Made by a program: the position numbers and the translations under genes. Source: Sphingobium xanthum (lineage in GTDB: Bacteria; Pseudomonadota; Alphaproteobacteria; Sphingomonadales; Sphingomonadaceae). Taken from it: a stretch of 64,000 nucleotides of DNA. Positions within the stretch are counted from its first letter, which is position 1, and each line of letters opens with the position of its first letter. Location: NCBI RefSeq assembly GCF_019737615.1, contig NZ_JAHKKS010000011.1:1-64000 (forward strand). Direction: 5' to 3'. The notes under the pieces were generated by a model that was given only the letters and a program-made list of their open reading frames with translations, was not told the DNA's origin and made no database searches. This document shows, piece by piece, positions 30,648 to 42,485 of this stretch.

Positions 30648-31343
30648 ATGACAGCCTTCAAGTCCGGCGACCCGACCACGTTGAACCGCCTGTATGGGCG
30701 CCAATCCGGCCACAAGCTGCGCATGGGGCAGCAGGCGCTGGTCGATGAGCTGCTGCCGGCGATCAGCGTGCCCGAGGAAGGCGAGATCACGGCAGGCGGT
30801 CTGTTCGGCTTCGATCGGCCGCTGCACTTCGAGATCGGCTTCGGCTCGGGCGAGCATCTTGCCTATCGCGCGGATATGCTGCCCGACCACGGCTTCATTG
30901 GCTGCGAGCCGTTCCTCAACGGCGTGGTCGGCGCGCTGGGGCACATCAGGGACCAGCATCTCGCCAATGTTCGCCTGCACATGGGGAATGCACTGGACGT
31001 GCTCGCGCGCGTACCGGACGGCGCGCTGAGCTTCGTCTATCTGCTCCATCCCGATCCCTGGCCCAAGGCGCGTCACGCCAAGCGTCGGATGATGAACAAG
31101 GGGCCTATCGACCTGATTGCGGCGAAGCTGAAGCCGAGTGGCGAATTTCGCTTCGGCACCGATCACCCGATCTATCTGCGCTGGGCGCTGATGGTGATGC
31201 GCGAGCGGGAAGACTTCGAATGGCTATGCGAGACGCCCGCCGATTTCCTGAAGCGCCCGGGCGGCTGGCCAGAGACGCGCTACGAGGCGAAGGCGCGCAG
31301 GAAAGGCCATGAAGTCTGGTACTTCCGCTACCGCCGAAAATAA
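30648..31343 (+). CDS. trmB: tRNA (guanine-N7-)-methyltransferase
   Basis: This 231-residue class I methyltransferase makes m7G46 in tRNA. It shows the SAM-binding EIGFGSGEHLAYRA, then GCEPFLNGVVGAL, the hallmark YLLHPDPWPKARHAKRRMM, and the C-terminal GWPETRYEAKARRKGHEVWYF. The length is standard. Its stop codon coincides with the left end of the lux-box-like palindrome upstream of the LuxR-type gene. Confidence 0.94.
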   Translation: MTAFKSGDPTTLNRLYGRQSGHKLRMGQQALVDELLPAISVPEEGEITAGGLFGFDRPLHFEIGFGSGEHLAYRADMLPDHGFIGCEPFLNGVVGALGHIRDQHLANVRLHMGNALDVLARVPDGALSFVYLLHPDPWPKARHAKRRMMNKGPIDLIAAKLKPSGEFRFGTDHPIYLRWALMVMREREDFEWLCETPADFLKRPGGWPETRYEAKARRKGHEVWYFRYRRK

Positions 31344-31391
31344 CCTATTTGGAAAAATAGTCTTGACATCGTGACGCTGTTTGGTTAGAAA
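31343..31391 (+). promoter_or_regulatory. Lux-box-like palindrome abutting a sigma70-type promoter
   Basis: Positions 31343-31362 fit the lux-box form NNCT-N12-AGNN (ACCT at the left, AGTC at the right, with CTATTT/AAATAG arms). The next base begins TTGACA (31363-31368), followed by a 17-base spacer and TAGAAA (31386-31391). A lux box adjoining the -35 element is the arrangement used for LuxR-type activation. The first gene downstream is the LuxR-type regulator at 31634. The short arms could also be a weak terminator for trmB. Confidence 0.55.
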
Positions 31392-31633
31392 TGATCAAGA
31401 TCGGAATTCGAATCGACGGCGACGATGAACGATTGGGCTCGAGGCGCATTGAGCGCGTCAATCGGTGGTCAATTTCAGTCCTCTTTCGCTCATTCGCCGG
31501 GATCTCGGTGACCGGCAGAACACGCTTCGCAACATTCCGCCACTTCGGCAGCCTAAGCGGCTGCGGAATCGCTTGCTTTTGAGTCTGGATAGGCGGACGA
31601 TGAACGTTCAGCGAAGCCTACGGAGCTTCCCGG

Positions 31634-32341
31634 GTGGAAGACATACTGAGGAGAATCGCGAGCGCGACGACACTGCCGCTCTTGTGGCGGCAGATGACGC
31701 GCTATTTCAGTCGGCACGGCTTCGACGGCGTGAGCTATTATTGGGTCCGCACCTCGACGAACCTTCCGGCGACTGTTCCGCTGCAGCACGGCTTTTCCAA
31801 AGAGGAAATCGAGCTTTATCTGTCGTTTGACTTCCAGCGGCTGGATATCGTGCCGCGCGCGGCGCTGGCCGCCGGGATGCCAATTCGCTGGACGGATGTC
31901 TGGCGCAGTTCCGAACTGACGTCGGAGGAGCGGGAATTCCTGGGGTCCATGCGAGCGATCAACTTTTCGGACGGCTTCTCGATGCCCTGTTATGGCCCCA
32001 ATAATCGCAATGCGGTGGTGGGCATCTCGAAGATGACGCCGGACGCCGATACGAGCCCCAGTCATATGTCGCTTCTCCATTTCGCCGCGCAAGCGGCGCA
32101 TCTGCGGATCTGCGCTCTGTTTGCCGACGAAGTGACGCGCGACCGGCAACTCTCGACGCGCGAAAAGGAAATCCTCGACTGGGTGGCGCGGGGCAAGAGC
32201 AATGGCGTGATCGCCGAGATCCTCGCCATCTCGCCCGGCACGGTGGATACCTACATGCGGCGGATTTACGAGAAGCTTGAAGTGTCCGACCGGACCTCGG
32301 CCGCCGTGAAAGGTGTGGGGCTCGGTCTTATCGCCGCTTAA
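31634..32341 (+). CDS. LuxR-family regulator with autoinducer-binding domain
   Basis: This 235-residue regulator has an N-terminal autoinducer-binding-like domain (about 20-160) and a C-terminal LuxR helix-turn-helix (LSTREKEILDWVARGKSNGVIAEILAISPGTVDTYMRRIYEKL), where the conserved Glu, Leu and Gly are kept. In the pocket region Tyr, Asp and Trp positions (ELY, RLDI, PIRW) are present, but the first Trp and the Pro after Asp are replaced by my alignment. No luxI is nearby, so it is a LuxR solo in this window. It uses a GTG start ~240 bases from the candidate promoter and ends 23 bases before the GTA capsid remnant. Confidence 0.85.
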   Translation: MEDILRRIASATTLPLLWRQMTRYFSRHGFDGVSYYWVRTSTNLPATVPLQHGFSKEEIELYLSFDFQRLDIVPRAALAAGMPIRWTDVWRSSELTSEEREFLGSMRAINFSDGFSMPCYGPNNRNAVVGISKMTPDADTSPSHMSLLHFAAQAAHLRICALFADEVTRDRQLSTREKEILDWVARGKSNGVIAEILAISPGTVDTYMRRIYEKLEVSDRTSAAVKGVGLGLIAA

Positions 32342-32364
32342 GAAGGTATAGCGAAAGCCGCTAA

Positions 32365-32589
32365 TTCCAGGCGCCGCTTGAAGGCATGCCCGATGTCGCG
32401 GCGGACAGCTTGTCGATTGCGTTCGGCAATTTCGCGCATGGCTATGTCATCGCCGAGCGCAACGAGACGAGCATCTTGCGTGATCCCTTCACGAACAAAC
32501 CTTTCGTGCATTTCTATGCGGTCAAGCGGATCGGCGGGGCTGTCATGAACAGCGAAGCGATCAAGCTGATGAAGTTCGCAGCCTCCTGA
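32365..32589 (+). pseudogene. Truncated GTA major capsid protein (C-terminal end only)
   Basis: The frame after a stop at 32362-32364 encodes about 75 residues that match the end of the HK97-fold major capsid protein of RcGTA-like elements (g5): MPDVAADSLSIAFGNFAHGY, then ILRDPFTNKPFVHFYAVKRIGG and the terminal SEAIKLMKFAAS. The full protein is about 400 residues. Everything upstream (capsid body, protease, portal, terminase) is absent, and the luxR-type gene ends 23 bases before. An ATG at 32386 exists but has no good ribosome site. Confidence 0.85.
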
Positions 32590-32622
32590 CGCCGTCAACG
32601 GGCTTTCCAAGGACTGGATGCC

Positions 32623-32653
32623 GCCATGTCGCGCTGATCAAGCGCGGCATGGC
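32623..32653 (+). terminator. Hairpin after the capsid remnant
   Basis: GCCATGTCGCGCT pairs with AGCGCGGCATGGC (one mismatch), followed by GCCTTCTTT. It lies between the capsid remnant and the adaptor gene, where GTA clusters may limit read-through after the highly expressed capsid gene. Confidence 0.5.
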
Positions 32654-32688
32654 GCCTTCTTTCCGCGTTCTGGCGAAAGGGCAAATGC

Positions 32689-33228
32689 ATGACCGTGACC
32701 ATAGCAAAAGGCGGCCCGCTCGCGGTGCCGCTCGATGACCTAAAATCCTATCTGAAGATTGGTCTCGACGACCAGGATGAGGCGTTGACCGATCTGATCC
32801 ATAGTGTGCACGACGCGGTCGAACGCTTCCTCGGTCAGCTCGTCGTGGCACGGACGATCGACGAAGTACTCACCGCGCGAACGGCATGGCAGAAGCTCGC
32901 GATACGACCGGTACGGAGCATCACGGCCATTGTAGGCATTCCGGCCGACGATCCCGAGTTTGCGCTGCCGGTCGATGCCTATGCCATCGATATCGATGGC
33001 AGCGGGACCGGCTGGCTGCGGATTTCAACGCCCGGCCTCGCCGGACGGGTTCGCGTGACCTACTCAGCAGGCATGGTGGAGGATGCATCCGATGTTCCGG
33101 ATGCGATCCAGCATGCGATCATCCGGTTTGCTGGCGAATTGCATGCCTCGCGCGAGGGGCTGGAACCCGAGCTGCCGGCGTCAGTCGTTGCTTTGTTACG
33201 GCCATGGCGTCGGCTCGCGCTGGCATGA
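32689..33228 (+). CDS. GTA head-tail adaptor (g6-like)
   Basis: This 179-residue protein has the phage head-tail connector pattern: PLAVPLDDLKSYLKIGLDDQDEALTDLIHSVHDAVERFLGQ at the N terminus, then an AIRPVRSITAI beta region and FAGELHASREG. It would be the adaptor (g6) joining capsid and tail in an RcGTA-like particle. It directly follows the capsid remnant, as g6 follows g5. With no intact head genes in view, its normal partner is missing. The next gene starts 19 bases later. Confidence 0.82.
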   Translation: MTVTIAKGGPLAVPLDDLKSYLKIGLDDQDEALTDLIHSVHDAVERFLGQLVVARTIDEVLTARTAWQKLAIRPVRSITAIVGIPADDPEFALPVDAYAIDIDGSGTGWLRISTPGLAGRVRVTYSAGMVEDASDVPDAIQHAIIRFAGELHASREGLEPELPASVVALLRPWRRLALA

Positions 33229-33247
33229 GCGTTGGAGGAGAAATCCG

Positions 33248-33643
33248 ATGTCCGGCGAACTAGCAGTGCGCGGCGCGATGCTGTCGGCGCTTCGCAGTGA
33301 CGCAACATTGCCAACGCTCGTCAATCAAATGAGTGACGGCGTACCCGAAAAGGCGAGCGCGCCCTGGCTCATGCTTGGTGAAAGCACGGCCAGTGGCTGG
33401 GGCGCGCAGGGAGTCGAGGGGCTGAGCCTGCGCCAGTCTTTGCTGCTGGTTCTGCGCGGCGATGATCTCGCAAGGGTGACGGCCATCATCGAGCGCATCG
33501 ACGCCGCGCTCGCAGCCACTGAGCCGGACCTTGGCGACTGGCGGATCACCAGCCTGCGGTTCGAGCGTTCGCGCATCCTGCGCAGCCGGACGGAATGGCG
33601 CGTGACGGCGGACTATGCCGTGCGGGCGGCCAGGGTGCTCTGA
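33248..33643 (+). CDS. DUF3168 tail terminator (GTA g8-like)
   Basis: This 131-residue protein matches DUF3168: VRGAMLSALRSDATLPTLV at the start, PWLMLGESTASGWGAQG in the middle and a conserved ERSRILRSRTEWRVTADYAVR end. In RcGTA the equivalent g8 caps the tail tube. GGAGGAG lies ~8 bases before the ATG. No g7 (stopper) gene fits between g6 and this gene; only 19 bases separate them. Confidence 0.85.
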   Translation: MSGELAVRGAMLSALRSDATLPTLVNQMSDGVPEKASAPWLMLGESTASGWGAQGVEGLSLRQSLLLVLRGDDLARVTAIIERIDAALAATEPDLGDWRITSLRFERSRILRSRTEWRVTADYAVRAARVL

Positions 33644-33692
33644 GTCCGGCTGTACGCGGCTCTGAAACTTCGTTTTGAAAGGACATCTGGTC

Positions 33693-34100
33693 ATGGCAGT
33701 CGAGAAAGGCAGCGCGTTCCTCCTGAAGATCGGCGATGGTGGGGAGCCTGCAACCTACGCCACGGTCGCCGGTCTGCGGGCCACGCAAGTCTCCGTCAAT
33801 GGCGAGGCGGTCAACATCACAAGCAAGGATTCCGGTGGTTGGCGGCAGCTGTTGCCAGGTGCCGGCGTGCGATCGGTCAGCGTTTCGGGCGGCGGTGTCT
33901 TCACTGGCTCCGCAGCCGAGGTGCGATTGCGCAATCACGCTCTGGCAGGGGCGATCGATGACTATGAACTCAGCTTCGAAAGCGGCGAAAAGCTGCGCGG
34001 CAAATTCCTCGTGACGCGGCTGGATTATGCGGGGGGTTATAATGGCGAGCGCACCTACACGCTCAGCCTCGAAAGCTCGGGCATGGTGAGCGCGCTATGA
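33693..34100 (+). CDS. Major tail tube protein, TP901-1 family (GTA g9-like)
   Basis: This 135-residue protein is the tail tube subunit of siphophage-like GTAs. It has the KGSAFLLKIGDGGEPATYATVAGLRATQVSVNGEAVNITSKDSGGWRQLLPGAG pattern of TP901-1 family tail proteins and ends GYNGERTYTLSLESSGMV. Many copies should stack into the tube. The start at 33693 is chosen because MAVEKG matches the family start. It overlaps the next gene by 4 bases. Confidence 0.88.
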   Translation: MAVEKGSAFLLKIGDGGEPATYATVAGLRATQVSVNGEAVNITSKDSGGWRQLLPGAGVRSVSVSGGGVFTGSAAEVRLRNHALAGAIDDYELSFESGEKLRGKFLVTRLDYAGGYNGERTYTLSLESSGMVSAL

Positions 34101-34414
34101 GTGTCGTGGCCAATACCGCACGCGGCGAGGTGCCATTCCGCATTCACGGGCAGGAATTGGTCGTCCGGCCGAGCTTCGCCGCGCTGGTCGCTGCCGAGAG
34201 CGAGATCGGGCCGTTGCTCGCTCTCGCGGGACGGGCGGGGCAGGGCGATGTCCGATTGGCGGAGATCGAAGCGCTGATCTGGCACTGTCTTGTCGATCGC
34301 CCGGCGGAGCTGGACCGGTCGCACCTGGGTGAGGCGCTACTGGAGCAAGGTTTGGCGAATACCGTGCCGGTTCTGAGGACTGTTCTGAGGCAGATTTTGG
34401 CCGGCGGGGGATAA
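34097..34414 (+). CDS. GTA g10-like tail assembly protein
   Basis: This 105-residue protein matches the gene-transfer-agent gp10 family: NTARGEVPFRIHGQELVVRPSFAALVAAESEIG, then IEALIWHCLVDRP and LGEALLEQGL. It is thought to help tail assembly as a chaperone. It overlaps the tail tube stop (ATGA), so translation is coupled. The next gene starts 5 bases after its stop. Confidence 0.85.
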   Translation: MSVVANTARGEVPFRIHGQELVVRPSFAALVAAESEIGPLLALAGRAGQGDVRLAEIEALIWHCLVDRPAELDRSHLGEALLEQGLANTVPVLRTVLRQILAGGG

Positions 34415-34419
34415 GGGGC

Positions 34420-34698
34420 GTGGAGAGCTTTGCGGTGGCTGCGCGGCGCCTTTGTGGTCAGGCGGGGCTCCTGCTCGGTTGGCGGCCCGAAGAGTTCTTG
34501 CGGAGCACGCCCGATGAAATCGGTGACGCATTGCGCGCGCTGCATGGTCAGTGCGGCGTTCCCGAAACGCCACTCGATCGCGCGATGTTCGCGCGTCTGA
34601 TGGAGATCTATCCTGATGGAACAAGAACTGGATCGACTACTGAGTCCGATGCAAACGGAGTTTTCCAGACTGCAGGCCGACACGGGGGATCTGCGTAG
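34420..34698 (+). CDS. Phage tail assembly chaperone (GTA g10.1-like)
   Basis: This 92-residue protein starts with GTG. Residues 1-65 have the tail assembly chaperone pattern (FAVAARRLCGQAGLLLGWRPEEFLRSTPDEIGDALRAL...FARLMEIYPDG). Family members usually end soon after the YPD-like motif, but here the frame continues 28 more residues over the start of the tape measure gene, an 83-base overlap. The extension may be non-native, for example after a lost stop codon. Confidence 0.78.
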   Translation: MESFAVAARRLCGQAGLLLGWRPEEFLRSTPDEIGDALRALHGQCGVPETPLDRAMFARLMEIYPDGTRTGSTTESDANGVFQTAGRHGGSA

Positions 34699-35197
34699 CG
34701 AGCTCGATGCTCTCGCCGTCGGTGCGGACCGGGCCTGCCGTGTCATCGAGGGCGCACTGCTTCGGGTCGTGCGGACAGGAAAGTTCGGCTTCGAGGATCT
34801 CGGCAAGCTGGCGCTTTCGGTCATGGCGCAGATCGCTCAAGCGGCGGTGCGAAACGGCATCGAAGCTATCTTTCATGGCACAGGCAAAGGCCAGGATGGG
34901 GGAAGTGCCCTGGCCGGGCTGGCCACCTCGCTCCTGTCCGACCTGCTCGGAGCGCCGGGGCGGGCGACGGGCGGCCCTGTGTCCCCCGGCCGAGCCTATC
35001 TGGTCGGCGAGCGCGGACCGGAAATCTTCTTGCCAACGAACAGCGGGCGGATCCTGACGGGGGTGGGAGAGCATGGAGGATCGCGAGACGTTCGGGTTTC
35101 GATACATATCAATGGCAGCGGCCAGGATGCGCCTCGCACGCTCGCTCGCAGCGCTCGGCAGGTTGCGCGTGTTGTTCGGGGTGCTTTGGCGGAATAG
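34616..35197 (+). CDS. Tail tape measure protein (GTA g11-like)
   Basis: This 193-residue protein has the short tape measure organisation of RcGTA-like elements: an N-terminal helical part, a hydrophobic/Gly-rich centre (ALAGLATSLLSDLLGAPGRATGGPVSPGRAYLVGERGPEIFLP) and RDVRVSIHINGSGQDAPRTLARSARQVARVVRGAL. The GGPVSPG.AYLVGERGPE motif is diagnostic. Length sets tail length, so the predicted tail is short, as for GTAs. It is followed not by the usual DUF2460 gene but by a PEPxxWA-CTERM gene. Confidence 0.85.
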   Translation: MEQELDRLLSPMQTEFSRLQADTGDLRSELDALAVGADRACRVIEGALLRVVRTGKFGFEDLGKLALSVMAQIAQAAVRNGIEAIFHGTGKGQDGGSALAGLATSLLSDLLGAPGRATGGPVSPGRAYLVGERGPEIFLPTNSGRILTGVGEHGGSRDVRVSIHINGSGQDAPRTLARSARQVARVVRGALAE

Positions 35198-35337
35198 GAA
35201 TCCCTGAACGGGACGGCCGATGTCAGGAATTACTGGCAAAACGTGGTTAATGGGATAAAAATACCACTGCCGGAGGTCGCACTTCGACGGCGTCGGGGTT
35301 GGCTCCGGAATTGGAAAAAGCCAATTGGAGTGGGACC

Positions 35338-35832
35338 ATGAGAAAAACAGTGTTGATGGGAGCCGCTGCTTTCGTCGCGCTCGGCGTAGCTAGTCAGGCC
35401 GGAGCCGCTACGGGCTTCAGCTTCGAGAATCTCGGCGGCGCGGAATATGATACGATCGGCTTCAACATCGTTGGTGATGCCGTGTTCACGGGCGACACCG
35501 ATGACGGCAGCGGCACGGATGATGTGACGTTCGAAATCTGGGATGACGGTACGCAACTCTTCTCGACATCTTTCGCGGGCGTGATCGGCGTCGAAAACAC
35601 GTTTCATTTCGATGAGTGGTTTCCCGGCTTGATCAAGCAGGGAGCGGCGGGCGTCGGCCTCTATCTCTACGACAATGGCGCGCTCGTGCTGTCGATCGGC
35701 AACTATAACCCGCCGCATCTCCCCGATCCGGGCGCGATCCCGGAGCCGGCGACCTGGGCAATGCTCGTGAGTGGTTTTGCCTTGGCGGGTGCGGCCATGC
35801 GTACGCGCCGTCAGCGGGTGAATTTCGCCTGA
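35338..35832 (+). CDS. PEPxxWA-CTERM sorting-domain protein inside the GTA cluster
   Basis: This 164-residue exported protein has a signal peptide (VLMGAAAFVALGVASQAGA) and a C-terminal PEP-CTERM-type tripartite tail: IPEPATWAMLVSGFALAGAAMRTRR (PEP..WA motif, hydrophobic helix, basic end). It should be processed and sorted to the cell surface by an exosortase-like system. The middle is a small, acidic beta-rich domain without a named family. It has its own terminator and interrupts the tail gene series between tape measure and DUF2460 genes, like a phage moron. Confidence 0.88.
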   Translation: MRKTVLMGAAAFVALGVASQAGAATGFSFENLGGAEYDTIGFNIVGDAVFTGDTDDGSGTDDVTFEIWDDGTQLFSTSFAGVIGVENTFHFDEWFPGLIKQGAAGVGLYLYDNGALVLSIGNYNPPHLPDPGAIPEPATWAMLVSGFALAGAAMRTRRQRVNFA

Positions 35833-35883
35833 TCCGGGGGAAGCTCCGCAAAGGGTAAGCAACGCGCTTTCCTCTCGAGCAAG

Positions 35884-35917
35884 ATTGGGGCGGGCCTGCA
35901 AATGGCTCGCCCCAATT
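35884..35917 (+). terminator. Terminator after the PEPxxWA-CTERM gene
   Basis: ATTGGGGCGGGCC pairs with GGCTCGCCCCAATT (small bulge) around a 7-base loop. It is 52 bases past the PEPxxWA-CTERM stop and should end that transcript before the DUF2460 gene. Confidence 0.6.
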
Positions 35918-36192
35918 AGTTTCAGATTGCCGGGTACTCGACGCGCAAGCCGAACGAACTTGCGGCTAGGGCAACGCCGCCGAAGCGCCGTGCGCGGCGC
36001 GCGCTCGAGTTCACGTCCGTGCCGAGCACCGCCAGCGCGCCATCCGCGAGCGCCGCAAAGTTACTTACCCTCCAGGGTGCAAGGCGCTGTGGAAGCGCTG
36101 CAGCAAGCCCGGCCGCAGCATGTCGGGCGGGTCGTCGTGCGCCTGATGTTGTGCGGCACAGTGCCAGACCATGCAAGAAGCGAGGACATGCC
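35918..36192. other. Gap between PEPxxWA gene and DUF2460 gene
   Basis: I see no credible gene on the plus strand. A 90-codon minus-strand frame (35922-36194) exists but has no recognisable family or ribosome site. The region must hold a promoter for the downstream tail genes if the terminator at 35884 is effective. Confidence 0.35.
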
Positions 36193-38517
36193 ATGCCCTA
36201 CTGGCTCGCGAACGAGCGGCGCAGACAAGAAACCAACGTCATCAAGCGCTTCTCGCCGCCCTATTGGACGGTCAATTTTCCGCGGCCGATGATGGCATCG
36301 GTCGTGACGACCGCTGACGGGCTGCGGGTCGATGTGACCTTCCATACATCGGGCGATCTGGCCGGTCTCATCTGGGAGTCGGAGGACCGCTGGGACCATC
36401 CTCTGCTGCGCTACGAGACACGGCGGGACTATGGTGGATGCCGCCTGCGCTTCCGTTGGCGCAGTGCGAGTGTCACAGCGCTCGATGCGATCAACGGCCC
36501 TGTCCTCACTGTCGAGGGTCGGGACGCGGAAGGCCTCTCGCGCACATGGCATGTGCGGCTTTGGAATTATGCTGTGGGCGAGCCGGACGATGCGCTTATC
36601 GCGCTCGATTTCGATGCTCTGGTCGGTGGCTTCCTTCTGCCCGACGAGGCAGATCCGGTTCACACGAAGGACATTGACCGCTTGTTCATTGCGCTCGTGC
36701 CCGAGGCCTATGACGGTGAAGGCAATGCGCTCCCCGGCGCTGTGGAAGGCTGGGTCGAACTGAGCGACCTGTCCTGTGACGGCTCCGGATCGGTCCTATC
36801 GATCGGCGATATCATGGTCCCCGAGAATGGCCTGTCGATCGCCACGGGTTATGACGATGCCTATAACCAGACGCCTGAGCGTCTGCTGCGCCAGGCTCTG
36901 GCCTTGGGTTATCGAGGGCCGATCAATCATTATGTCGGGATGAGCCACTATATGCGGCTGGAGCCGCTCGGTGGGGCGTTCCATGCAAGCCTGGCGGATG
37001 GTGCGCTGAACGGGCCGTGTGAGCGATGGCACGAGGATTTTGCGGCGCGATGCAAGGAACTCGGATTCGAACCGATCTTCTCGCTCTCCTATGAGCTGTT
37101 CGATGCGTATTGCCGGGACGACTGGAAGCAGCGTGCCTGGGACGGATCGCCGGCTTTGACGGGTTGGGTACCGCCATCGACCCTGCTGTCACCGGCCCAC
37201 ACGGGCGCGATGAACTATCTGCAAGAAGTTGCGCGCGCATTCGTGCGCATCACGCAGGAAGCCGGGCTTGCCGTAAAGTTCCAGATCGGGGAGCCCTGGT
37301 GGTGGATCATGCCGGACGGGCGGCCGTGCTTCTACGATGATGCGGCTCGGGCCGCATTTGGCGGAACGCCGCCGGAAATCGAGAGCGTGCGCGATGATCT
37401 CGATACTTTACAAATCGACTTGCTCGATGAGGCCGGCGCCTTGCTGGCCGCTTCTACCGCCGCGATCGCAGACGCCGTGCGCGACGAGAGTCCCGAGGCG
37501 GAACTGCTCCTGCTCGCCTATTTGCCTACCATCCTGGACTCCGCGGCGCCCGAGTTGCAGCGCGCCAATCTGCCGGTTGATTGGGCGTTGCCTGCTTTCG
37601 ATCGCCTCCAGATCGAAGACTATGACTGGGTCACGGGCGGCCACGTCGCACGATCGAGGGCCGGCCGAGTAGCGATCGATCTGCGGCTCGGTTACCCACC
37701 CGATGAACAGCATTATCTGGCCGGCTTCGTGCCAGTGAGCTCTTCCGCAGGGGGAAGAGCGCTCGCCTGGGGGCGGATTGCGGAAGCGGCAGCAGCCGCG
37801 CGAACGCGGGGCCATGCCGCCGTCTTCATCTGGGCCTTGCCGCAGGTAGCGCGCGACGGCTTCACCTATTTCGACCTTGCGGGAGATGGCGACGTGCAGG
37901 CCTTCGACGATCTTTCCTTTCCGCTCGATATCGGCAGGCGCGCCCAGGTGGCGCCGGTCTTTTCGACCCGCGTGATCGAGAGCGTATCGGGCCACGAACA
38001 ACGCAGCACGCAATGGGCGGACGCGCGGATGCACTACGATGCCGGTCCCGGCGTCCGATCCGAGGCGGACATTGCGGCGTTAGTCGCATTTTTCCGCGCA
38101 CGGCGCGGCGCGGCGCGGGGTGTCCGGTTCCGCGACCCCTTCGACGATGGATCCGGCGCGTTCGGGACGGAACCGACGCCGCTCGATGAGGTGATCGGGA
38201 CGGGCGACGGCGCGAGAACGAGCTTCCGATTGCAAAAGGCCTATGGGGTCGGCGAGGAACAGGTTCGCCTCATTACGAGGCCGGTTGAGGGATCCATCAG
38301 GGTAGCGGTCAATGGCCTCGAAGTAAGTTCCGGCTGGTCGCATTCCGGACGCGGCGCGATCGACTTCGATGCGGCGCCTGATGTGGATGCCGTAATCACC
38401 GCCGGTTTCCTGTTCGATGTGCCGGTGCGCTTTGCGGAAGACCGGCTGGAGATCGATCGTGAGACCTTCGCCGCCGGGATCGTGCCGTCCGTGCCTCTGG
38501 TGGAGATCCGGGAGTGA
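36193..38517 (+). CDS. Large tail protein: TIM-barrel-like region plus C-terminal DUF2460 (g12-like)
   Basis: This 774-residue protein combines two parts. Residues 1 to about 560 start MPYWLANERRRQETNVIKRFSPPYWTVNFPRPMMASVVTT and contain a glycosidase-like TIM-barrel segment (YDDAYNQTPERLLR, NHYVGMSHYMRLE, FSLSYELFDAYC, VKFQIGEPWWW, WDPPS-like GWVPPSTLLSPAH). Residues about 575-774 are DUF2460, the distal tail protein (g12) of RcGTA (FPLDIGRRAQVAPVFSTRVIESVSGHEQR...GFLFDVPVRF). The barrel resembles that described for non-contractile tail sheath proteins. It overlaps the next gene by 4 bases. Confidence 0.82.
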   Translation: MPYWLANERRRQETNVIKRFSPPYWTVNFPRPMMASVVTTADGLRVDVTFHTSGDLAGLIWESEDRWDHPLLRYETRRDYGGCRLRFRWRSASVTALDAINGPVLTVEGRDAEGLSRTWHVRLWNYAVGEPDDALIALDFDALVGGFLLPDEADPVHTKDIDRLFIALVPEAYDGEGNALPGAVEGWVELSDLSCDGSGSVLSIGDIMVPENGLSIATGYDDAYNQTPERLLRQALALGYRGPINHYVGMSHYMRLEPLGGAFHASLADGALNGPCERWHEDFAARCKELGFEPIFSLSYELFDAYCRDDWKQRAWDGSPALTGWVPPSTLLSPAHTGAMNYLQEVARAFVRITQEAGLAVKFQIGEPWWWIMPDGRPCFYDDAARAAFGGTPPEIESVRDDLDTLQIDLLDEAGALLAASTAAIADAVRDESPEAELLLLAYLPTILDSAAPELQRANLPVDWALPAFDRLQIEDYDWVTGGHVARSRAGRVAIDLRLGYPPDEQHYLAGFVPVSSSAGGRALAWGRIAEAAAAARTRGHAAVFIWALPQVARDGFTYFDLAGDGDVQAFDDLSFPLDIGRRAQVAPVFSTRVIESVSGHEQRSTQWADARMHYDAGPGVRSEADIAALVAFFRARRGAARGVRFRDPFDDGSGAFGTEPTPLDEVIGTGDGARTSFRLQKAYGVGEEQVRLITRPVEGSIRVAVNGLEVSSGWSHSGRGAIDFDAAPDVDAVITAGFLFDVPVRFAEDRLEIDRETFAAGIVPSVPLVEIRE

Positions 38518-39335
38518 CCGCCGCGTCCGAGATCTTGTCGCAGTCTCTGACGGCCTTCGCCTTCTGTTGGCGCCTTGAGCGGCGTGACGGCGTCACGATC
38601 GGCATCACGACCCATGACCGTGTCCTCGATATTTCCGGTCTGACCTATCATCCAGCCCCAAGTATCGCGCCGAGCGCGATCCTGCGGGGTGGGGATGGCG
38701 CGGAGGAAATCCTGGACGTGCGCGGAGCGCTGAGCTCCAACGCGATCAACGAGGCGGATCTTGATGCCGGCCGCTGGGACGGCGCGTTGACGCTTCTGCA
38801 CCTGACCGAATGGACTGAGCCAGGCGCTCTTTGGCTGGAGCTGGCGCGCGGGGAACTGGGAAGCGTCAGTCGTGAGGGCGGGACCTATTCGGTGAGCTTG
38901 CGTAGCGGCGCAGGCGCGATTCTGGCTCAGCCAGTCGTTCCGATAACCAGCCCGACCTGCAGGGCGAGACTTGGCGACGCGGCCTGTCGCATTGACCTTC
39001 GCCGGCACCAGCGGATCGCTGCCATCATCGGCCAGGTCGATAGCACGGTTCAGTGCGGCGCGCTGGAGCCGGGTGTCTATCCATTCGGTCAATTGCGATG
39101 GCTTGGCGGCGCGAATGCCGGGCTGGCCCAGGCGATTGTCGATCAGGAGGGTGACAGCCTGTTTCTCGCCCAGGCGCCAGCCTTCGCGGCGATCGAAGGG
39201 ACGCACGTGCTGTTGACCGAGGGGTGCGACAAGCGGCTGGCGAGCTGCGTTTCGCGAATGCCGAGAATTTCAGGGGCGAACCTCATCTGCCCGGCATGGA
39301 CCTTCTCACCCGCTATCCCGGGAGTTGAACAATGA
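38514..39335 (+). CDS. DUF2163 hub protein (g13-like), apparent frameshift near end
   Basis: This 273-residue protein matches the DUF2163 tail hub family: TAFAFCWRLERRDGVTIGITTHDRVL, SSNAINEADLDAGRWDGA and SPTCRARLGDAACRIDL. The expected end NAENFRGEPHLPGMDLLTRYPGS is present but in another frame. After the TGC codon at 39246-39248 one base seems missing (GTTTCGCG for CGTTTCGCG). The restored frame would stop at 39328, 3 bases before the next start. As written, the last ~28 residues are out of frame. It could be a real mutation or an assembly error. Confidence 0.82.
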   Translation: MTAASEILSQSLTAFAFCWRLERRDGVTIGITTHDRVLDISGLTYHPAPSIAPSAILRGGDGAEEILDVRGALSSNAINEADLDAGRWDGALTLLHLTEWTEPGALWLELARGELGSVSREGGTYSVSLRSGAGAILAQPVVPITSPTCRARLGDAACRIDLRRHQRIAAIIGQVDSTVQCGALEPGVYPFGQLRWLGGANAGLAQAIVDQEGDSLFLAQAPAFAAIEGTHVLLTEGCDKRLASCVSRMPRISGANLICPAWTFSPAIPGVEQ

Positions 39336-39748
39336 CTCTAGGCGAACGGATCGCAGCGGAAGCGCTGGGGCTCGTCGGCGTGCCTTTCCGCTTGCATGGT
39401 CAGACTGAGAACAGCGGCCTCGACTGCGTGGGCCTTGCCGCACTCGCAATGCGGCGCGCCGGCGCAAGTCTCGGCGCGCTGCCGGTCTATCGCATTCGCG
39501 GCATGGGCTTGGCGCGCGTCGAAACGCTGTTGCGAGCGGCCGGGCTGAAGCCCGCCGCTGGCAATCATCCCGGCGATATCCTCGTCTGCGAGAGTGGAGC
39601 GATGCAACTCCATCTGATGATCGCCACGAACGAAGGCTGTGTGCATGCCCATGCCGGTCTGGGACGGGTCGTGCTGATGCCGGCACCGGGGCCTTGGCCG
39701 CTGCTTGGGCAATGGCGCGGGGTCGAGCACAGGGGCGAGGCGGGCTGA
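39332..39748 (+). CDS. NlpC/P60 family peptidase (GTA g14-like)
   Basis: This 138-residue cell-wall peptidase of the particle tail has the catalytic Cys in SGLDCVGLAALAMRRAG and the His in MQLHLMIAT, matching NlpC/P60 and RcGTA g14. It should locally degrade peptidoglycan during DNA or particle entry. The start is preceded by GGGAG. It overlaps the next gene by one base (TGATG). Confidence 0.9.
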   Translation: MTLGERIAAEALGLVGVPFRLHGQTENSGLDCVGLAALAMRRAGASLGALPVYRIRGMGLARVETLLRAAGLKPAAGNHPGDILVCESGAMQLHLMIATNEGCVHAHAGLGRVVLMPAPGPWPLLGQWRGVEHRGEAG

Positions 39749-41952
39749 TGGCGACTTTGATTCTGACGACGCTGGGCTCCGCGCTTGGCGGGCCGATCGG
39801 CGGCGCTCTGGGTGCGCTCGCGGGGCAGGCGATCGACAATCTGATCTTTCGCCCGGACGCGCGATCCGGCCCTCGATTGAGTGATTTGCAGGTCCAGACC
39901 TCTCGCTACGGCGCACGGATACCAAGCCTCGATGGCGCGTCGCGCGTCGCGGGTACGGTCATCTGGTCCACTGATCTGCAGGAAAGCAGATCGACGACGG
40001 GTGGCGGCAAAGGCCAGCCAGACGTTACGCGATTCAGCTACTCGGCCAGCTTCGCGGTCGCGCTGTCTTCGCGGCCGATCCAGGCCGTGGGCAGAATCTG
40101 GGCCGACGGCAATTTGCTGCGCGGCTCCGCAGGTGATTTCAAAACACCGGTGACGGCGTTTCGCCTGCACAAGGGGCTCGAAGGGCAGTCAGTCGATCCC
40201 TTGATCGCCGCCGACATGGGAGTGGGGCAAACTCCGGCCTATCGTGGCTGCGGCTACGCCGTTTTCGAGGGTTTGCAACTGGCGGATTTCGGAAACCGGA
40301 TTCCATCGCTTACCTTCGAGATATTCGCTGACGACGGTCCGGCAGGCATCACGGCCATCGTCTCCGATCTGGCGGCGCAAGACATTCCTTTCGATGGTGA
40401 CGAGGAGGAGCCCTCGGTCGTCGGTTTCGCTGCGGAAGGAAATACGCTGCGTGACGCCGTCGAGGACATGCTCGGGACATATCGGCTGCGATGGCGCGAA
40501 CGGGACGGCGCCATTGCACTCGTTGCGGCGAAATCGTCGGATCGTGTTCTGGCGGCATCGGACGAAGTCCGATCTGCGGACGGCGAGGCACTCTCATCGA
40601 AATCGAAGCAGCGGGAAGCGGTGGAGTCTTTGCCACGCCAACTCGCGATCCGACATTATGACCCTGACAGGGATTTTCAGCTCGGCATTCAGACGGCGGA
40701 ACGATCTGGCCCGGGCGAGCGAAGCGAAGAAATCGGCCTCCCGGTCGTCATCGGCGCGGCCGATGCCCGGCGGCTCGCGGATCGTAGCCTGCGAGCGGCA
40801 ATGCGCGGACGCACGACGGTCCGCAGAGCCATGTCCTGGGCAGCGCTGGATCTTTCGATCGGCGATGTCGTGTCTATGGAAGATGAACCCGGGCGCTGGT
40901 TGGTCGAAGCTTGCGATTGGGAAGGACAAGCCGTTCGTCTGCAATTGCGTGCCGTCGAGGTGGGGACGCGGGCGGCGATTCCCGCGGGAACCTCCGGCGC
41001 ACCGGTGTTGCAAGCGGACCTTGTGCAAGGCGCAACTATCCTGTCCATTGTCGAATTGCCGCCGACGGGCATCAGTCTGGTCGATGCACCCACCGTCTTC
41101 GCAGCCGCCACCGGCGACGATGCCGGCTGGCGCCGCGCGGCTCTGTTTCGCTATCGCGCCGATCTTGAGGCGGCAGAGCCGATCGGCAGAACTGCGGCGT
41201 CTGCGGTAACAGGCGTGGCAGCCACGGTCTTGCAGGATGGAAAGCCCTGGAGGATCGACAGGCGAAGCAGCGTCGAAGTGGTATTGCACGATGCGAGCGA
41301 TGTTCTGTCGCAAGCTGACGATGCGGCGCTGCTTGATGGCGCCAATCTTTGCCAGATCGGCGATGAACTGCTGCAATTTGCAAATGTTGAGCTCGTGGGG
41401 CCGCGCCGCTACCGCCTCAGTCACTTCGTTCGCGGTCGGCAGGGTACGGAATGGGCCTGCGCGTCGCATCTTGGCGATGAGCCCTTCGTACTCATCGATC
41501 CTACGCACCTCACAGCTGTCGAGACGGACCGGTCTCAGATCGCCCAACTGCTTGAATTGCGAGCGATTGGAAGCGGCGACCTTGTGCCGGCGGAAGCTTC
41601 ACGACTTATCGACGGCCGCGCAATGATGCCCGTCTCGCCAGTGCATGGGAAAGTCCTTGCGCTGCCAGGTGGAGACCTTTCGATCGGCTGGATCCGGCGA
41701 AGCCGATTGGGCTGGACGTGGGGAAATGGAGGCGATGTGCCGCTCGCGGAGGAGCGAGAGCTCTATCTCCTGAGAGCCGTGGCCGATGGGCTGATCCTTC
41801 GGGAATGGGAAGCGAACGGGCCGCTCGCCACCTACGCGGCGGCGGCCTTTGCCGAAGACCTGGCGGCAGCAGGATCGGCAAGCCTCCAAATAGAGGTCAG
41901 GCAGAAGGGAATGTGGGGTTTGAGCAAGCCGCTCGTCCTCGATCTCGTCTGA
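39748..41952 (+). CDS. Tail-tip host-interaction protein (GTA g15-like, short form)
   Basis: This 734-residue protein starts MATLILTTLGSALGGPIGGALGALAGQAIDN and continues with YGARIPSLDGASRVAGTVIWSTDLQE, the sphingomonad form of RcGTA g15 with the phage-tail_3 domain. RcGTA g15 is about 1300 residues and carries a TIM barrel; that part is missing here, while the g12-like protein carries one. The C-terminal region (FVRGRQGTEWA, VHLTA..) matches the Rcc01698-like domain. It would sit at the tail tip and contact the host surface. Confidence 0.88.
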   Translation: MATLILTTLGSALGGPIGGALGALAGQAIDNLIFRPDARSGPRLSDLQVQTSRYGARIPSLDGASRVAGTVIWSTDLQESRSTTGGGKGQPDVTRFSYSASFAVALSSRPIQAVGRIWADGNLLRGSAGDFKTPVTAFRLHKGLEGQSVDPLIAADMGVGQTPAYRGCGYAVFEGLQLADFGNRIPSLTFEIFADDGPAGITAIVSDLAAQDIPFDGDEEEPSVVGFAAEGNTLRDAVEDMLGTYRLRWRERDGAIALVAAKSSDRVLAASDEVRSADGEALSSKSKQREAVESLPRQLAIRHYDPDRDFQLGIQTAERSGPGERSEEIGLPVVIGAADARRLADRSLRAAMRGRTTVRRAMSWAALDLSIGDVVSMEDEPGRWLVEACDWEGQAVRLQLRAVEVGTRAAIPAGTSGAPVLQADLVQGATILSIVELPPTGISLVDAPTVFAAATGDDAGWRRAALFRYRADLEAAEPIGRTAASAVTGVAATVLQDGKPWRIDRRSSVEVVLHDASDVLSQADDAALLDGANLCQIGDELLQFANVELVGPRRYRLSHFVRGRQGTEWACASHLGDEPFVLIDPTHLTAVETDRSQIAQLLELRAIGSGDLVPAEASRLIDGRAMMPVSPVHGKVLALPGGDLSIGWIRRSRLGWTWGNGGDVPLAEERELYLLRAVADGLILREWEANGPLATYAAAAFAEDLAAAGSASLQIEVRQKGMWGLSKPLVLDLV

Positions 41953-41984
41953 AGCAACCAGACACGAGAAAGTCAGGAGACATC

Positions 41985-42485
41985 ATGATGGCGCAAACGG
42001 ATCGTTTGGGCCTGCCGCTGCTCGCGGCGGGACAGGCCCAGAAGGAACTCACCCACAATGAGGCGCTGGGCCTGATCGACATGACCGTGCAACTCGTTGT
42101 CGAGAGTGCGGATCTCGATACGCCCCCCGATGCGCCGGAAACCGGTCGATGCTGGATCGTCGCGACGGGCCCTGGCGGCGTCTGGTCGGGCAGAGCGGGG
42201 CAGGTTGGCTGCTGGACTGCGAATGGCTGGCTTTTCGCACAGGCGAAACGTGGATGGTCGGCCTGGGTGGTGGATCGGCAACATTCGATGCGATTTGATG
42301 ATCCGGATTGGGTGGATGAGCCCGCGCGCAACGACGGCTATTACGTAGAGGGTGATCGCGTCGTGGGCTTTCGGCAGCCCGCGATATCGGGCCCGTCGGG
42401 CGGGGCCGTGCAGGACGTCGAAGCCAGGACAATCCTCGATGCAATGCTGGCCGCGCTGCGGGCGCATGGACTGATCGATACATGA
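41985..42485 (+). CDS. DUF2793 domain-containing protein (GTA cluster end)
   Basis: This 166-residue protein matches DUF2793: RLGLPLLAAGQAQKELTHNEALGLIDM at the start and PPDAPETGRCWIVATGPGGVWSGRAGQVGCWTANGWLF in the middle. The gene commonly closes sphingomonad GTA clusters and may encode a tail fibre or particle decoration. GTCAGGAGA precedes the start ATGATG. It follows the g15-like gene by 32 bases; a non-coding stretch and an OmpA-like gene come next. Confidence 0.85.
   Translation: MMAQTDRLGLPLLAAGQAQKELTHNEALGLIDMTVQLVVESADLDTPPDAPETGRCWIVATGPGGVWSGRAGQVGCWTANGWLFAQAKRGWSAWVVDRQHSMRFDDPDWVDEPARNDGYYVEGDRVVGFRQPAISGPSGGAVQDVEARTILDAMLAALRAHGLIDT

Follow-up and report, generated by a model that had tools for sequence, protein, structure and literature searches.

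The 64,000-nucleotide stretch of Sphingobium xanthum DNA analysed here (the window, whose positions serve as coordinates throughout; its source genome is labelled G000) carries a gene transfer agent (GTA) cluster of the type known from Rhodobacter capsulatus (RcGTA) in which the tail genes stand without a head. Most probably this cluster, from a bacterium closely related to Sphingobium sp. SYK-6, lost the ability to make DNA-filled particles recently. From trmB to position 42485 the locus runs through a promoter-like block, a luxR-type gene, a 38-nt junction and a C-terminal remnant of the capsid gene into g6, g8, g9, g10, g10.1, g11, a PEP-CTERM gene, g12, g13, g14, g15 and a DUF2793 gene (Table 1). 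The earlier note had listed the ten tail and adaptor genes and the DUF2793 gene in this order, and Pfam and NCBIfam matches name all of them, those of g11 and g14 lying below cut-off; the g6–g15 module keeps the conserved order and its tail genes contain no internal stops. No portal, prohead protease or full capsid was found in G000, and the locus is filed as a broken RcGTA-type cluster, not a working GTA. With portal and capsid missing, DNA packaging would therefore be impossible and the cell would be a GTA non-producer.

The extent of the loss is seen most directly against SYK-6 (NC_015976.1, L002), in whose genus G000 is grouped (SYK-6 corresponds to genome G027, which its terminase matches at 100%) and whose cluster has the order trmB–g1–terL–luxR–portal–protease–capsid–g6. 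The two loci share the place behind trmB, the luxR gene and the tail gene order, with protein identities of 74% for g12, 90% for g9 and 90% for the capsid remnant. In SYK-6, however, g1, terL, portal, protease and capsid are all present in the cluster, whereas not one of them is whole in the window, which also has a PEP-CTERM insert; the terminase of G000 lies elsewhere. On the head side of the locus, similarity to SYK-6 is found at the trmB end, in the luxR region and at the capsid end, the remaining matches being short and due to chance; sequence comparisons gave no assignment for the origin of the 38-nt junction. As the earlier note had stated, what remains of the capsid is its end, the last 69 residues (codon 311 onward), and this is the sole PF05065 match in the whole genome (32380–32577, profile positions 211–280). 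Profile and protein searches of the whole genome gave no head elsewhere: there is no PF04860 match and no relative of the SYK-6 portal, no PF04586 match for the prohead protease and no full capsid. The statement that the head genes are gone thus holds genome-wide for these three, but for the terminase only at the locus, an open terL being present on another contig.

In relatives the head does usually lie upstream, as the earlier note had stated. Portal and capsid stand upstream of g12 in 61 of the 62 genome loci with at least 8.5 kb of upstream sequence among the best 80 of 144 (the 18 with less than 8.5 kb were excluded from the count). Of the best 80 of 230 IMG/VR contigs, 45 extend 7 kb or more upstream, the other 35 being too short, and 44 of the 45 have the head there. 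The exceptions are a metagenome-assembled genome (MAG) that is also without g6–g11 matches (L014) and a contig in which the portal is matched but neither capsid nor g6 is (L155). The place behind trmB is likewise conserved, trmB being directly upstream in SYK-6, G031, G047, G073 and G059 and lying outside the stretch covered for G058, G062, G060 and G085. Matches to g12 occur in 82 of 94 genus genomes, to the SYK-6 terminase in 87, and to its portal and its capsid in 84 each, totals that take in partial genes, prophage matches and contig ends. Of the 82 g12-bearing genomes, two, G000 and G053, are without a portal match and keep at most some 70 residues of the capsid end. GTA clusters of the genus have commonly decayed in other ways as well: G031 has kept portal and capsid and lost g13 and most of g12, and ten of the 94 genomes show no capsid match (G002, G023, G052, G059, G061, G064, G066, G071, G072 and G084), several of these being fragmented assemblies.

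That head genes exist in G000 and were merely dropped in assembly, or lie in a gap between contigs, is very unlikely. The assembly is in draft form, with 24 contigs and 4,063,133 bases, and the copy of the locus in IMG/VR (viral contig IMGVR_UViG_2828427071_000001, L144), which matches 32689–42485 at 100% over 9,797 bp, begins at g6, so that it misses the junction, and may stem from the same assembly. Yet the searches, with two families and two proteins, covered all contigs, completeness is listed as 100, and the deletion lies inside a single contig.

The packaging motor has a separate history. An open terL (PF03237, PF17289) with a g1 match lies on contig C5 of G000 beside rplQ (G000:C5:97515-100679, L141), the contig ending before the other flank of the pair; the large terminase expected of an RcGTA-type cluster is thus present in the genome and not in the cluster. 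In G031 and G062 the g1–terL pair sits between rpoA and rplQ, whereas in G058 only part of terL is present, truncated where the contig ends and accompanied by a partial g1 match. Whole-genome searches found no in-cluster terminase in G000, G031, G062 or G058; G062 has an additional terminase match on contig C13, alongside prophage-type portal and capsid matches. In G027, G047, G053, G059, G060 and G085, rpoA and rplQ are adjacent, with no g1–terL pair. The rplQ-linked terminases form one group (branch support 100 in a 77-sequence tree), apart from the in-cluster terminases of the genus. A tree of nine tail genes and luxR, built with FastTree, joins G000 with G058 (0.997) and G062 with G073 (1.000), and the distribution of the unlinked terminase is therefore patchy, a pattern that fits transfer as well as differential loss. 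Loss of the in-cluster terminase was probably a separate event, older than the head loss, and in those members that have a head the unlinked enzyme probably packages in trans.

The rpoA–rplQ gap of G073 (L134:5727-7149) is filled by another open frame, which by eye looks radical-SAM-like, and because of this the gap may be an insertion hotspot; a terminase remnant was sought there and gave no significant match.

The open, unlinked terminase makes it seem that split GTAs exist in the group, and portal and capsid could by analogy be supplied in trans from an unlinked or foreign module. This is hardly to be expected, as G000 holds no second PF05065 capsid, no PF04860 portal and no PF04586 protease anywhere, and the SYK-6 portal, matched in 84 of the 94 genus genomes, is not matched in this one.

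The age of the head loss can be gauged from the capsid remnant. Over 67 columns its protein is 94.0% identical to that of G058 and 94.0% to that of G062, within the 88–97% found for this region between pairs among G058, G062, SYK-6, G047, G073 and G060. Selection was assessed with a codon model on nine of 14 aligned taxa, leaving out G031 (a broken cluster), G053, G059, G072 and L005, with codon columns containing gaps or stops removed and with g10.1 and DUF2793 outside the test. The ratio of nonsynonymous to synonymous change (dN/dS, omega) of the remnant is 0.021 on the G000 branch versus 0.032 elsewhere (twice the log-likelihood difference, 2dlnL, 0.40). When a neutral terminal segment was fitted to the G000 branch, with only that branch re-optimised and the other parameters fixed, the best fit for the remnant was zero. 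The limit (3.84 drop) lies near 0.1 substitutions per codon for the remnant, by interpolation from the values 0.08 and 0.12, where the whole branch measures 3.08; for g12 and luxR it lies near 0.04 and 0.03. The head deletion looks recent because a capsid remnant that should have no function still looks constrained, and a deletion young relative to the branch is preferred over the remnant itself being kept. Omegas on the G000 branch are 0.025–0.120 for the tail genes and 0.027 for luxR; g13 alone exceeds its background (2dlnL 0.25), and luxR, g9 and g11 lie nominally below theirs (2dlnL 13.4, 7.8 and 5.1). The dN/dS comparison that had been proposed thus gave no relaxed selection in nine tail genes or luxR, with little power after so recent a deletion: the remnant is likewise without relaxation, so that the time since the loss is too short to judge selection on the tail genes. 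Since the deletion looks recent, that the tail genes are open reveals little about whether the tail was used after the head was lost.

This bears on the possibility, raised in the earlier note, of a tail-only particle in an F-type tailocin-like use of the GTA. On this reading the locus would have been recruited as a device that makes non-contractile tails under the control of the in-cluster LuxR. Tail genes, luxR and promoter-like block are intact, non-contractile tail genes stand without head genes as in F-type tailocins, and rhizoviticin is an alphaproteobacterial F-type tailocin with tail proteins called GTA-gp10 and DUF3168 in the accessible text on it (PMC10811719). Recruitment is nevertheless unlikely. 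The head loss looks recent, and two genes for which a bare tail would have no use, the portal adaptor g6 and the unlinked terminase, remain open. Pfam found no lysis domain in seven flanking proteins (one of them without a family; lysis genes elsewhere in the genome were not searched), and a foreign PEP-CTERM gene and a strong hairpin lie inside the tail operon. The headless state has not been kept through speciation, as SYK-6 and G058 both have portal and capsid matches, and in G053, a separate headless case, the tape measure gene g11 looks broken, its halves lying in different frames and its middle being shortened. Rhizoviticin, as far as that text describes it, shares with the window a headless region and the names of its tail genes, but its lysis genes are linked, it possesses a second regulatory region and its killing has been demonstrated; no counterpart of these came to light in the sequence analysed here. 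Tail-only use, which would carry the greater weight if true, is without positive support, and plain decay, which the earlier note had kept as the conservative alternative, is the better reading.

A plausible agent of this decay is indicated by the breakpoint. The remnant starts at capsid codon 311; in G053 the capsid homology starts about 6 nt earlier, and the DNA preceding it there is a large serine recombinase (L107:5632-7203; PF00239, PF07508, PF13408). For a gene of 1.14 kb with uniform breaks, we estimate that chance would bring two of them this close, 6 nt or less, in roughly 1 case in 100. Because the right breakpoint of the window nearly matches the recombinase site of G053, head loss through a serine-recombinase element is plausible and the likeliest cause, and the break in the window is a possible scar of one. 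Relatives of the G053 recombinase (E <= 1e-60) occur in 16 of the 94 genomes, G053 included. Recombinases at head-gene breaks were examined in G053, G075 and G093, chosen for their split head genes: in G075 (L228, L229) a recombinase adjoins the portal gene, which is split at residues 190/196 into halves about 53 kb apart, and in G093 (L230), where the split falls at 198/183, part of a recombinase adjoins the break in the portal. Of 178 phage records compared for the serine recombinase none reaches 60% identity, the best listed having 28%. In the accessible text of PMC10111431, helper-embedded satellites are described as settling in prophage late genes, and the recombinases at GTA breaks resemble them as integrating elements that repeatedly choose the late genes of a phage-like host; the satellites of that text, though, sit in lambda late-gene cognates, whereas the large serine recombinases sit at GTA portal and capsid breaks (G053, G075, G093) and the window has only a possible scar. 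A wider generalisation is rather doubtful and offered tentatively: GTA head genes of this genus may be attachment sites of large-serine-recombinase elements, where insertion shuts off GTA production and imprecise loss leaves headless non-producers such as the window, while in the same group the packaging motor moved to the rpoA–rplQ region and acts in trans.

On the reading as recent decay, the losses would have occurred in two steps. In the first, probably older, the in-cluster terminase would have been lost in G000 and three relatives, with a divergent GTA-type terminase located elsewhere. In the second, recent step a deletion reaching from behind luxR to capsid codon 311 would have taken out the portal and protease genes together with the greater part of the capsid gene, leaving the promoter-like block, the LuxR regulator, the adaptor and the tail genes, which may still be expressed, in a cell that would no longer produce GTAs. 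Several points weigh against this account. The nearest relatives show frame breaks of their own, the portal of G058, a MAG, and the protease of G062 each being split over two frames, which may reflect MAG errors or decay, and no finished genome by itself gives the best view of the intact state with packaging in trans. G000 contains no relative of the recombinase (E <= 1e-60), so that the cause of the head loss is reached by inference. Silent sites are near saturation and parameters were fixed in the time profile, which makes the omegas and the limit rough; the remnant could owe its retention to some role of its own and would then fail as a clock; and the age estimate draws on a single genome of the species.

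Loss and pseudogenisation of GTA clusters are known, and cheater lineages have been proposed, according to the accessible part of PMC10883770, in which one survey is also described as having discarded incomplete clusters. The window resembles those pseudogenised clusters and proposed lineages in that particle yield would be lost in one lineage; it differs from them, as far as they are described there, in that one clean block, the head, is lost, the other genes are open and the terminase is unlinked. GTA clusters are usually treated as a single block. Here a GTA has apparently been caught soon after production was lost, and what is left of the capsid can be used as a clock. The locus also directs attention to a packaging motor that lies outside the cluster and, in the genus, to head-gene breaks that recur at certain places next to serine recombinases; taken together, these observations offer a concrete explanation, open to testing, of how GTA non-producers could arise. 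The unlinked GTA terminase in a ribosomal-protein region and the serine recombinases at GTA head-gene breaks are the most interesting parts. A literature search conducted mostly without subscription journals found nothing on a LuxR gene inside a Sphingobium GTA cluster and, by titles and abstract openings, no report of an unlinked GTA terminase or of serine recombinases in GTA head genes. ComEC was considered as a sign that the cell is a recipient; it is present in G000, but the same family occurs in 10 of 14 control genomes, which makes it a weak sign.

Table 1. Features of the headless GTA cluster and its upstream flank (window positions)
Feature	Position	Strand	Evidence
trmB, upstream neighbour of the cluster	30648..31343	+	PF02390
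Promoter-like block behind trmB	31351..31400	+	TTGACA at 31363, TTAGAA at 31385, by eye
luxR-type regulator between both lost stretches	31634..32341	+	PF03472 and PF00196
38-nt junction	32342..32379	.	SYK-6 similarity ends at luxR end, restarts at 32380
Capsid C-terminal remnant, residues 311-379	32380..32589	+	PF05065 match
Strong hairpin behind capsid stop	32622..32654	+	14 pairs; 32605-32670 fold -35.2 kcal/mol, z -4.3
g6, head-tail connector	32689..33228	+	TIGR02215
g8, tail completion protein	33248..33643	+	PF11367
g9, tail tube	33675..34100	+	PF06199
g10	34097..34414	+	PF11836
g10.1, chaperone	34420..34698	+	PF09550
g11, tape measure	34616..35197	+	PF09718 at 20.4 bits, below cut-off of 23; homologous to g11 of relatives
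PEP-CTERM gene, inserted within tail operon	35299..35832	+	PF07589
Hairpin behind PEP-CTERM gene	35883..35917	+	35875-35930 fold -29 kcal/mol, z -4.61
g12, tail-sheath N domain, TIM barrel and DUF2460	36175..38517	+	PF23844, PF23845, PF09343
g13, hub	38514..39335	+	PF09931, TIGR02218
g14, NlpC/P60-like peptidase	39332..39748	+	PF00877 at 21.2 bits, just below cut-off of 23
g15, short megatron	39754..41952	+	PF13550, PF23666; NF048004 match below cut-off
DUF2793 protein	41988..42485	+	PF10983

The regulator encoded by luxR has an autoinducer-binding domain and is 87% identical to that of SYK-6, where the gene sits between terminase and portal. Matches to it above 100 bits were found in five of the 80 best genome loci (L002, L004, L005, L009, L059), and a luxR gene lies upstream of the portal or the place of the head in SYK-6, G031, G047, G058, G059, G060, G062, G073 and G085, the last with two copies. 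The promoter-like block is conserved with SYK-6, G047, G073 and G059 and not with G031, and was not picked up by a promoter consensus scan; likewise, the hairpin behind the PEP-CTERM gene was not classed as a terminator by scan. None of the relatives compared by locus map has a PEPC match at the g11–g12 position. In G047 and G031 about 1 kb of extra DNA likewise lies between g11 and g12, with unrelated open frames.

Within the tail module, the family of the g8 product (PF11367) is the former DUF3168. The g12 frame is open from 36019, the start codon at 36175 being provisional, and its product combines the N domain of a non-contractile tail sheath and a TIM barrel, preceding DUF2460. This form is usual for the family, as the 80 best of 144 relatives all align over at least residues 23–762. 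The g15 product aligns to the megatron model NF048004 only over positions 765–1286 of 1299, at 425.8 bits against a cut-off of 800. In RcGTA the TIM barrel is located in g15; in the window it is carried by g12, together with the tail-sheath domains, and is absent from the short g15.

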